Below are positions 7,991 through 45,149 of a DNA stretch of 46,616 nucleotides, one piece after another. Positions within the stretch are counted from its first letter, which is position 1, and every line of letters starts with the position of its first letter. The stretch comes from Actinomycetes bacterium. GTDB lineage: Bacteria > Actinomycetota > Acidimicrobiia > Acidimicrobiales > Bog-793. The stretch spans positions 1 to 46,616 of the forward strand of contig JAJZLV010000052.1 in assembly GCA_021803215.1 (NCBI GenBank). The letters are read 5' to 3'. The translations under genes and the position numbers were made by a program. The notes under the pieces are model-generated. The model was not told where the DNA came from, did no database searches, and was given only the letters and a program-made list of their open reading frames with translations.

Positions 7991-9061
7991 CTAGGGGCCG
8001 CTGAGCTCGAACTCGAGGGCGTCGCGGAAGACCCCTTCTTCCAGCAAGCGAGGCTTCGCGGTGCCGGCCACGACGACGAAGTCGTGGTGCAGTCGGACGA
8101 GGCGCATGCCATGGCTCAGGTAGAAGCCGATGGCTCGGAGGTTCTCGTCGGTCGTCGTCAGCCAGAGCCGCTTGTGCAGCTGCCCGGCGAGCGCCGCGGC
8201 CGCCTCGAGCAGCCGGCCTCCCACTCCCGCTCGCTCGACGAGGCTTTGCAGCAGCACGACCTCGAGCCCCTCGCCGTCGACTCGATAGGCCAAGACGCCG
8301 AGCGGGCTGCCCGCCGACTCGGCGACGTAGCCCGGCAGGTCTCGGGGATCGTGGGAGCCGGAGGTGCTCACAAGAGGCAACCCCCACTCGGTCTCGACCA
8401 GCTCGGAGTACCAGTCGCGGTCGCTCGCGGCGTCGAGCGGACGGACTTCGAAGGACCGCTTCGTCCAGTCGAACTGCTCGAGTTCGAAGCCGAGCTCTCT
8501 TAGCAGCTGGCGGAGGAGCGAGAGCGAGAGACCGATGACGTTGGCCGGCTCGCCGTCGATCCCGGCGAGGAAGGGGGCGGCCCGGCCCTCGATGCTGAAC
8601 CCGCCCGCCAAGAGCTCCGCCTCGCCGCTTTGCAGGTAAGCCTCGAGCTCGCCAGGGCTCGGTCGGTCGAAGCGGACCGTGGTTCCGACACTTCTCTCGG
8701 CGGTTCTGCCGGTCCTGCCGTCTATGAGGAAGTGGCCGGTCCAAAGCGTTGCCTCCCGACCGGCGAGACGCTCCCAGAGGGCGGCCGCCTGCGCCCGCGA
8801 CTTCGGCTTGCCGTAGGGCCGGCCCTCGAACTCGAGGAGCGAGTCACAGCCGAGCACGATCTCTCTCGGGAGCCGCCTTTCGACCTGGCGCGCCTTTCGC
8901 TCCGCCAGAAGAGCCACGGCGCTGCTCGTCGTCAGATGCTCGAAGCGCTCGTCGACCCGGCTCGGGACGACGCGATGGACGATACAGGCGCCGCTCAGGA
9001 GCCGATGGCGGCCGGAGGACGAAGAAGCGAGCACGAGGTGGAGCAGGCGACCGTCTCTCAC
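7991..9061 (-). CDS. Maf-like nucleotide pyrophosphatase fused to GNAT acetyltransferase
   Basis: 356 residues with two domains. Residues about 6-195 are Maf/YhdE-like house-cleaning nucleotide pyrophosphatase: LASSSSGRHRLL at the N-terminus, the catalytic Asp in VLGCDSLL, a GKPKS turn and the C-terminal VIGLSLSLLRQLL helix. Residues about 203-345 form a GNAT N-acetyltransferase domain beginning FEVRPLD, with acetyl-CoA loop VERAGVGGRLLEAA and the ENLRAIGFYLSHGM segment. Maf proteins normally end near residue 200. The frame is continuous across the junction, so this looks like a true fusion, not a misread stop. The acetyl acceptor is unknown. It lies 99 bases downstream of the molybdenum hydroxylase on the same strand. 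Confidence 0.85.
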   Translation of the reverse strand: MRDGRLLHLVLASSSSGRHRLLSGACIVHRVVPSRVDERFEHLTTSSAVALLAERKARQVERRLPREIVLGCDSLLEFEGRPYGKPKSRAQAAALWERLAGREATLWTGHFLIDGRTGRTAERSVGTTVRFDRPSPGELEAYLQSGEAELLAGGFSIEGRAAPFLAGIDGEPANVIGLSLSLLRQLLRELGFELEQFDWTKRSFEVRPLDAASDRDWYSELVETEWGLPLVSTSGSHDPRDLPGYVAESAGSPLGVLAYRVDGEGLEVVLLQSLVERAGVGGRLLEAAAALAGQLHKRLWLTTTDENLRAIGFYLSHGMRLVRLHHDFVVVAGTAKPRLLEEGVFRDALEFELSGP

Positions 9062-42454: not shown

Positions 42455-43387
42455 CTAGGACCTGAGGCGGCGGCCGAGGGCCGCCGACAGCCGCCCCGGG
42501 CGTCCTTGCCCGTCAGGCCCCGCCTTCTCGGCGGCGAGCCCGAGGCGCCCGAGGGTGCGGCGCGAGCCGAGCCACCAGCCGACGGCGACCGCCCCGGTCG
42601 AGAGCACGACCGCTCCGAGCGAGACGGCGACGGCCGGGCGCTGGGGGACGGCCGATATCCGCCCCCGCACCCTGTCTCGCAGGCGGACCGGCTGGGTGAA
42701 GCGGGCCACCGCTATGCCGTGCTCGCGGGCGTAGCGACCGAGCACCCGATCGGGGTTCACCGCCACCGGGTGCCCGACTGCGTCGAGCATCGGCAGGTCG
42801 GTGTAGGAGTCGGTGTAGGCGTACGAGGCGTCGAGGTCGATGTTCTCGGCGTCGGCCAGCTGGCGCATCGCCTCTGCCTTGAACTCACCGTAGGCATAGA
42901 ACTCCATGGCGCCCGTGTAGCGGCCCTCTTGCACCTGCGCCCGGCTGGCTATGACCCGATCGGCTCCGAGGTAGCGGCCGAGCGGGGCGACCAGCTCCTC
43001 GGGCGAGGCCGAGACGAGGACGACCAGGCGGCCCTCGTCCTTGTGCTGCTCGATCAGGTCGGCCGCCTCGGCGAAGATGATCGGCTCGACTATCTGCTCG
43101 AGGGTCTCGGCCACGATCTCTCGCACCCGCTCCTGGTTCCAGCCCCGCGTCAGGCGGAGCACGGACTCACGGATCCTCTCGAGCTTCTCCTCGCTGGCGC
43201 CGAGGTGGAGGTAGACCAGCTGGGCGTAGAGGGCTCGCAGGACGGTCCGGCGGTTGACGAGGCCCCCTTTGTAGAGCGGACGGCCGAAGGCGGCGATCGA
43301 GGCCCGGGCGATCACCGTCTTGTCGAGATCGAAAAAGGCGGCCTCCCGACGCCGCTTCGCCTCGAAGCCGGTCTCAGGCCCGTTCAC
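42455..43387 (-). CDS. HAD-superfamily (IB) phosphatase with C-terminal membrane anchor
   Basis: 310 residues, GTG start. Motif I FFDLDKTVI carries the nucleophile and acid/base Asp, motif II is VVLVSASPEELV, and motif IV is YTDSYTDLPML. A cap with many helices lies between. The type is SerB/CicA-like; many actinobacterial relatives act on phospholipid or phosphoserine-like substrates. Residues about 258-280 form one membrane helix (VAVSLGAVVLSTGAVAVGWW). Its start overlaps the end of the trkA remnant by 14 bases. Confidence 0.85.
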   Translation of the reverse strand: MNGPETGFEAKRRREAAFFDLDKTVIARASIAAFGRPLYKGGLVNRRTVLRALYAQLVYLHLGASEEKLERIRESVLRLTRGWNQERVREIVAETLEQIVEPIIFAEAADLIEQHKDEGRLVVLVSASPEELVAPLGRYLGADRVIASRAQVQEGRYTGAMEFYAYGEFKAEAMRQLADAENIDLDASYAYTDSYTDLPMLDAVGHPVAVNPDRVLGRYAREHGIAVARFTQPVRLRDRVRGRISAVPQRPAVAVSLGAVVLSTGAVAVGWWLGSRRTLGRLGLAAEKAGPDGQGRPGRLSAALGRRLRS

Positions 43388-43955
43388 GGGGGCTGGTGAG
43401 GAGGGCCCGCAGCTCCTCGTCGTCGGTGTTGGCTCCGGCGAGGACGAGCACCTCGTCGTCGGTGTCGAGGTAGGTGTCGGCCCGAGGCACGACGAGGCGT
43501 CCCTCCCTGAACATGGCGAAGCTGGTCGAGCCGCAGGGAGGTCCGAGATCGCCGACGGCGGCGCCGGCGGCCGGCGAGCCGGCGGCGAGGGTCACCTCGA
43601 CAGGGCGCGTGTTGCCCCGCTCGAACTGCGAGAGGCGTGCCAAGACGCCGACCGAGACGGCTTCCTCGACGAGGCCGGCCGGCAGCTGGGGCGTCGAGGA
43701 CACCAGCTCGACGCCCCAGGACTCGTTGAAGAGCCAGTGGTTCTGGAAGAGCCAGTGGTTCTTCGGGTGGTTGACCCGGGCGATCACCCGGGGCACGGCG
43801 AACTCCTGCTTGGCGAGGAGCGAGATGACGACGTTGTCCTCGTCGTCGCTCGTGACGGCCACCGTCACCTCCACCTCCTCGAGGTGAAGGCCGTGCAGCG
43901 AGGAGAGCTCGCAGGCGTCGGCGAAGCGGTGGCGCAGCGCGCCTCGGACCCTCTT
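43374..43955 (-). pseudogene. Second TrkA/CeoC-like potassium-uptake regulator, 5' part deleted
   Basis: From about 43955 the frame reads ALRHRFADACELSSLHGLHL, then VAVTSDDEDNVVISLLAKQE, FAVPRVIARVNHPKNHWLF, and a TrkA_C domain ending at 43374. This corresponds to CeoC from roughly residue 60 onward. The N-terminal Rossmann half with the GxGxxG motif is missing: the text joins directly to the end of the upstream trkA remnant. An 18-base in-frame tandem duplication repeats NHWLFQ. Without the NAD-binding half it cannot work as a standard Trk regulator. Confidence 0.75.
43728..43763. repeat. 18-base tandem duplication in the trkA remnant
   Basis: Two adjacent 18-base units (43728-43745 and 43746-43763) share 17 identical bases and give NHWLFQ-NHWLFN instead of the family-typical single KNHWLFNESWG. 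Confidence 0.9.
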
Positions 43956-44556
43956 GTGAGAGGAGCTGGAGCGAGTCGCCCTCCTGGCCGACGATGCCGC
44001 GCACCTCGATGCTCGGCGGCGCCGCCGCTTGTCACGGCCGCGATCCGTGTCCCGGCCGGCACGACTTCGGCCAGGCGCCTGCCGGCCCACTCGGCTGGCA
44101 GCCTCACCTCGACGAGACGGAGGGTGCCCGTCGAGGCGGTCCGCCCCCAGGCGCTTTGGGCGGGGATGAGCCCTCGCAGCAGCTGATCGGTCGTCCAAGA
44201 GACGCTCGGCACGGTCGGGAGGCCGAGGCGCCGGAGGCTCTTGGCCCGCCGCAGGTCGCAAACCCTCGCCACCACCTGGGGCATGTCATGGCTCTCGCGG
44301 GCGATCCGGGCGGTCAGGACCTTCGAGTTGTCGCCGCTCGTCACGGCCGCCCGGGGACCGGCCCTCGAGGCGCCCGCCTCTTCGAGGTGTTCCCGGTCGA
44401 AGCCGAAGCCGGTCACCGCCGTCCCCCGCCAGGCGGAGGGCAGGCGGCGGGGGCTTTGGGGTTCTTGACGATCAGGAAGACCTCGTGCCCGGCCCCCTCG
44501 AGGCCAACCGCCAGCCCGGAGCCGACTCGCCAGCAGCCGACGATGATGACGTGCAC
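43956..44556 (-). pseudogene. First TrkA/CeoB-like potassium-uptake regulator, frameshifted
   Basis: From GTG 44556 the frame reads MHVIIVGCWRVGSGLAVGLE then GAGHEVFLIVKNPKA. The second Gly of the nucleotide motif GCGRVG is Trp. A one-base loss near 44455 moves the frame to SAWRGTAVTGFGFDREHLEE, then NSKVLTARIARESHDMPQVV and ARVCDLRRAKSLRRLGLPTV. A further shift near 44010 gives the end VRGIVGQEGDSLQLLSQEG. At least three lesions are therefore present. Mycobacterial ceoB and ceoC have the same tandem order. Confidence 0.75.
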
Positions 44557-44659
44557 CGGCTCATACTTCCGCGCCGGGGGGTCCTCCACAACTCCCGCCG
44601 TGTTCGCCGCCGCTCTCGCGCAGGCAAAGATGACCGGGTGCGACGGGAGACGAGCCGGG

Positions 44660-45110
44660 GCGGCTTGCCGCCCACGAGCTCGCTCAGCCTCCCCGAGCCG
44701 CTCGGCTACCGGATCGAGCGGCGCCCCGCGGGGCGCCGCTCACGACCGAGCGCCTGTCCGACGGGAAGCGCTCGAAGGCCCTCGCCTCGGGGCTCTCTCG
44801 CCGGGCATGATCTCCTCGAGCGCCTACGCCACAGCAGAGATGCTCAACCAGCTCGTGCCGGTGATAGGCGTGGCGGCCCTCTCGCTCATCTTTGCCGGTC
44901 ACCTTCGCCATCTTGCTGGTGCTCTTTGTCTTTTTCGTCACCCTCTCCTCCGGGTCAGCTCCTCATCGCCCTCGAGGGGAGGCGCCGCTACCCTGGGGTG
45001 GAGCCGGGGGCCATCATCACGGCCGAGGGGATCGTCGGAGAGAAAGCGGGACGCTCGATCAACCCGGTCATCGAGATCCTCCGCCCGGCCGGGCCGGCCG
45101 TCGAGGACCA
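44660..45110 (+). pseudogene. APC-superfamily permease, N-terminal remnant
   Basis: Pieces of an APC permease N-terminus appear in order in three frames: SLSLPEPLGYRIERR, then LTTERLSD and RSKALAS, then GMISSSAYATAEMLNQLVPV and IGVAALSLI, then VTFAILLVLFVFFVTLS, then QLLIAL and PGAIITAEGIVGEKAG. The rest (roughly three quarters of the gene) is absent. Such permeases stand divergent to the two trkA genes in mycobacteria and other actinobacteria, so the whole conserved locus is present but dead. Confidence 0.7.
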
Positions 45111-45149
45111 GGAGCAGAGGCCTGCGGGCGGAGAACAGCTGGTGAAATC

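Follow-up and report, generated by a model that had tools for sequence, protein, structure and literature searches.

Two trkA genes and a divergent permease beside the gene for an ion-pumping pyrophosphatase, hppA, can be read in this stretch of DNA only across broken frames, which raises the question of whether they are genuinely lost genes or casualties of sequencing, and how the organism would take up potassium without them. The window analyzed here, a stretch of 46,616 nucleotides, is an entire contig of the source genome (2.64 Mb, 148 contigs, 95.5% complete), whose named relatives, judged by hppA, comprise Acidimicrobiaceae together with related metagenome-assembled genomes of actinobacteria. 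The initial annotation had placed a decayed trkA pair and permease at 43374-45110, and remnants of all three genes were indeed found at 43374-45118. We are highly confident that they derive from an ancestral K+-import module (CeoB/CeoC plus a KimA-like permease) that was lost early on this lineage and has been drifting approximately neutrally since, with Kdp and a lone KimA homologue remaining.

As the sole genome of the same genus used for comparison, G001 (hereafter the sister; locus on contig C160) carries the whole set intact and in synteny. Its gene order is nadE, an rpoD-type sigma gene (both names assigned from the translations), HAD (-), ceoC-like trkA (-), ceoB-like trkA (-), APC permease (+) and hppA (+); all have open frames, and order and place match the window. 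The remnants thus correspond to intact orthologues at the equivalent position in a close relative, as expected of pseudogenes. Pfam profiles recognized TrkA_N clearly in both sister trkA proteins and TrkA_C clearly in ceoC alone, the match in ceoB falling short of the cut-off. Because the sister sequence covered the window region at 75-88% identity (blastn) and its proteins matched the window with E values of 6e-67 for ceoB and 3e-95 for ceoC (tblastn), we consider this a decayed locus rather than a chance likeness.

Alignment to the sister bore out the damage that had been read in the trkA genes from the letters alone, namely frameshifts, a Gly-to-Trp change in the NAD motif and a deletion fusing the two genes (Table 1). 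The frameshifts are single-base indels, with one base fewer than in the sister at about 44452, one extra at about 44027 and one extra at about 43926, although the exact places depend on the alignment. A TrkA pair of the CeoB-CeoC kind comprises two tandem genes encoding TrkA_N with a GxGxxG motif and TrkA_C, and the window no longer contains one, since the N-terminus of ceoC, the motif glycine of ceoB and the reading frames have been lost.

Table 1. Genes, remnants and lesions at the locus (positions in the window).
Feature	Position	Strand	Basis or remark
Intact HAD-IB family hydrolase gene, a conserved neighbour	42455..43387	-	TIGR01490 over cut-off; Pfam HAD
ceoC-like trkA remnant	43374..43960	-	Start and ~first 100 bases gone; TrkA_N (profile position 43 onward) and TrkA_C readable
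18-bp in-frame tandem duplication in ceoC remnant	43745..43762	-	Alignment to sister
200-bp deletion junction; ceoB 3' end and ceoC 5' end removed	43960..43961	-	Alignment to sister
ceoB-like trkA remnant with frameshifts	43961..44556	-	tblastn and alignment to sister
Gly-to-Trp codon in ceoB GxGxxG NAD motif (Gly in sister)	44530..44532	-	Alignment to sister
5' remnant of divergent KimA-like APC permease, frameshifted	44638..44953	+	Homology to sister permease
Permease deletion junction, ~1.87 kb	44953..44954	+	blastn match breaks off at sister 6487 and resumes at 8359
3' permease remnant, C-terminal OB-fold-like domain	44954..45117	+	67% identity to sister residues 731-798
hppA, ion-pumping pyrophosphatase, open but cut by contig end	45211..46616	+	Name from initial annotation; homology

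The permease had been described as mostly lost, and the larger of the two deletions accounts for this: it takes ~1.87 kb out of a gene that spans 2.43 kb (809 aa) in the sister, next to further indels and a lost stop codon (45115-45117). A full-length APC/KimA chain is thus present in the sister and not in the window. Its original designation as an APC permease was right as to family and too generic as to type, since residues 43-644 of the sister protein match KimA (PDB 6s3k) with an E value of 2.4e-104, which points to a KimA-type K+ importer. The C-terminal tail of the sister protein gave a weak match to PF01336, below the Pfam cut-off. Such an OB-fold-like tail is found on the CeoBC-linked permease (P0001 residues 702-809, L099 about 8220-8547), and matching stretches stand separately near kdpA (G010:C20, G006:C207 and G001:C29) or adjoin ceoC (L025), a puzzling association with K+ transport genes that recurs across genomes.

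On either side of the remnants, the HAD gene is intact, as first noted; the same had been said of hppA, which is open and 96.6% identical to the sister's over the 468 codons before the contig ends at 46616, so that it can be called intact only up to that point. In another genome (G098, L020 9587-10010), HAD and hppA are direct neighbours, and neither a trkA nor a permease gene separates them; no adjacent TrkA pair appears among the matches listed for that genome, which may have lost these genes cleanly and independently or may simply lack them.

Another K+ system had been suspected, and kdp, kup and a further trk set were the obvious candidates. The source genome has full-length kdpA, kdpB and kdpC as well as KdpE (KdpA: E 1e-229); only kdpA and kdpB score above the NCBIfam cut-offs, with kdpC, the KdpD parts and KdpE matching below them. 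KdpD is apparently split beside kdpABC (L118 10871-13834) into a KdpD-like sensor part without kinase and, on the opposite strand, a kinase part. Relative to the sister, the ratio of changes at first and second codon positions to those at third positions is 0.18-0.33 for kdpA, kdpB and kdpE, which look constrained, and 0.47 for kdpC, which looks less so. There is also a lone KimA homologue on contig C124, away from the window locus (E 2.6e-135 versus KimA). TrkH and Kup, neither of which was found in the source genome by profile searches, were rejected as the replacement; lacking TrkH, the genome has no classical Trk system of TrkA plus TrkH, and TrkH (PF02386) was found in none of the 15 family genomes searched, the source genome included. 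The sole Kup match above cut-off, in G027, lies inside a KimA-like gene. A second TrkA pair may lie in the missing part of the 95.5% complete genome. We infer that the lost module imported K+ and that Kdp and the lone KimA now cover for it.

The cause of the loss would lie within this explanation rather than beside it. A horizontally acquired lone KimA might have made the CeoBC-linked system redundant, a scenario that we consider unlikely while giving it some weight. The lone KimA of the source genome shares no flanking genes with that of the sister, to which it is 70% identical, with a third-position divergence of 0.48 compared to 0.26-0.35 in the kdp genes; in a tree, it falls into a different subclade. 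It is not related to the sister's copy by simple vertical descent. However, support for the two lone-KimA subclades is 84/81 and 100/97, and the nearest tree rows, G031 and G038, share an identical 2.2-kb stretch, possibly owing to cross-binning. The sister, too, has a lone KimA and yet kept its CeoBC module, so redundancy alone does not force loss. The 2.2-kb stretch that includes the lone KimA is 100% identical between L134 (G031:C118) and L140 (G038:C16), which belong to different families, possibly reflecting recent transfer or cross-binning.

To separate decay from error, we relied on a relative-rate test in which changes were polarized with eight other family genomes as outgroups. With G007 as the outgroup, changes at first and second codon positions numbered 38 on the window branch versus 6 on the sister branch for ceoC, and 42 versus 12 for ceoB; third-position changes were level (21 versus 22 and 20 versus 24, respectively). 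This excess was significant in all 16 gene-by-outgroup comparisons for the two trkA genes (p 6.7e-8 to 0.0055), and third positions were level in 15 of the 16, the exception being ceoC with G012 (33 versus 14, p 0.008). The flanking genes nadE, rpoD, HAD and hppA showed no excess at first and second positions, apart from nadE with G006 (59 versus 38, p 0.04). Expressed as the ratio used above, the window remnants reached 0.98 with G007 (bootstrap 0.69-1.42), compared to 0.20 for the sister and 0.26 for the window flanks; with four outgroups, the ranges were 0.79-0.98, 0.17-0.22 and 0.22-0.26, respectively. Sites invariant in the sister and outgroups were changed in the window at 16/102 positions in ceoC, 16/91 in ceoB and 8/29 in the permease, compared to 3/330 in hppA, 1/113 in HAD, 0/290 in rpoD and 7/275 in nadE, and reciprocal changes in the sister amounted to zero for all three decayed genes. 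For the permease, where the rate test covers 47-56 codons, the excess was significant with only two of seven outgroups. Counting against decay, the ceoC remnant retains 190 comparable codons without a stop, but stops are infrequent at 70% GC. The three genes therefore combine frame-breaking lesions with a loss of purifying selection, and the loss is old relative to the split from the sister, because the rate is near neutral over the whole branch.

These rates also bear on whether the locus might still be partly in use, with the fused ceoB-ceoC frame encoding a truncated TrkA of one subunit, or with the OB-fold tail made as a small protein. In the open frame at 43374-44261, TrkA_N is still recognizable from profile position 43 onward and TrkA_C scores just under its cut-off, and the OB tail has kept 67% identity to the sister. 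Yet the frame is without the first half of the nucleotide-binding domain, the near-neutral rate and the changes at otherwise invariant ceoC sites extend over it, and the tail has neither a start nor a stop codon; continued use is thus very improbable. Least credible of all is that sequencing, assembly or binning introduced these lesions into a metagenome-derived contig, the real genes being intact. Single-base indels often arise as artefacts and the genome is in 148 contigs, but errors cannot yield surplus first- and second-position changes in just three adjacent genes whose third positions diverge normally, nor two larger deletions between clean conserved genes, and we exclude sequencing error because the module evolves near-neutrally while four flanking genes stay constrained. 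With an intact sister locus and these rates, the original claim of decay holds, and corrected sequence restoring intact trkA and permease frames is no longer to be expected.

For the early loss followed by drift, the course of events would be as follows. The ancestor shared with the sister probably had two short TrkA-type regulators, CeoB and CeoC, and a divergent KimA-like permease with an OB-fold-like tail. Function would have been lost early on the lineage of the source species, and indels, substitutions and the two larger deletions would then have accumulated by roughly neutral drift. Today, K+ uptake would depend on KdpABC under KdpDE and on the separate lone KimA homologue. By itself, the locus records a genuine and old but ordinary event, in which this lineage lost an entire K+ uptake module. 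Its value lies in circumstantial evidence that the KimA-like permease and CeoBC act together: that regulators and permease decayed together supports the view that the three genes are one functional unit.

Linkage across the family and phylum bears on the same point. Counting only TrkA matches that form pairs and KimA matches, an intact TrkA pair lies within 1 kb of a KimA homologue in 20 of 23 other family genomes (19 of them divergent); of the three exceptions, two (G002 and G010) are interrupted by contig ends, and in G020 the pair and KimA lie on different contigs. KimA homologues were found in 29 of 60 phylum genomes and TrkH in 32, with both in only 6, a near-exclusion with a Fisher p of 1.4e-6 that ignores relatedness. 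The phylum tally is based on 129 typed rows, with a pair defined as a second match within 700 bases on the same strand, and gives lower bounds: at least 43 TrkA pairs, of which at least 13 are beside KimA and at least 11 beside TrkH. It left out all but one of the 21 best-scoring rows, none of which by eye has a second match within 700 bases on its strand, and the spacing rule missed one pair beside KimA (G055). None of the listed pairs is beside both KimA and TrkH, and 19 of 43 have neither within 1.5 kb. Within the family, 11 of 31 pairs lack a KimA within 1 kb; nine are second pairs whose genomes contain a KimA-linked one as well, and the others are those of G002, at a contig start, and G020. 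The two of these nine second pairs whose neighbourhood was examined both come directly after a P-type cation ATPase, Na,K/Ca-ATPase in type (L147 239-3142, G007:C74; L148 4344-8000, G009:C68). TrkA pairs hence evidently have other partners too, and may regulate ATPases besides TrkH and KimA-like permeases.

Three observations suggest that the KimA-like permease is the membrane partner of CeoBC: it sits at a constant position next to the pair, KimA and TrkH rarely share a genome across the phylum, and permease and regulators decayed together. The 19 of 43 phylum pairs with neither partner and the 11 of 31 family pairs without KimA count against this. Tentatively, and with somewhat less than even confidence, we propose that in actinobacteria without TrkH, probably including Mycobacterium, CeoB/CeoC would gate the adjacent KimA-like permease, the 'Trk' system being a two-part KimA-RCK transporter. 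If so, the window locus would be a natural co-loss experiment for this unit, and a KimA-like partner would supply both a transport path for the M. tuberculosis CeoBC system and a direct test. The corresponding permease in M. tuberculosis is presumably Rv2690c, beside ceoB.

Among known systems, M. tuberculosis CeoB/CeoC likewise consists of two short TrkA proteins side by side with a separate Kdp (PMC8358298, PMC4553272); unlike there, both members of the window pair are pseudogenes. No membrane subunit is named for CeoBC in the portions consulted of the papers that call it a Trk uptake system (PMC12136442, PMC13163235, PMC6375644, PMC4553272, PMC8358298), whereas the sister pair has an evident KimA-like permease linked to it, whose window counterpart has decayed. 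PMC12136442 and PMC13163235 contain none of the terms Rv2690c, KimA, permease and TrkH, and PMC6375644 contains neither TrkH nor Rv2690. In the literature searched, which covered few subscription papers, KimA and CeoB occurred together in a single, unrelated paper, and the idea may be in print elsewhere. The Thermotoga maritima TM1088A/B ring shares the two-subunit TrkA arrangement but, as described in PMC4380455, belongs to a putative Trk K+ transporter, whereas TrkH is absent from the source genome. In Streptomyces, a review (PMC10117811) lists two KimA-like proteins, Vnz_27465 among them, and no TrkH, and it mentions an RCK_C protein, Vnz_27460, whose number suggests that it neighbours Vnz_27465. 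KimA itself (6s3k) is homologous to the sister permease and to the lone copy of the source genome; the CeoBC-linked form differs from it in carrying the extra C-terminal OB-fold-like tail and in adjoining a TrkA pair.
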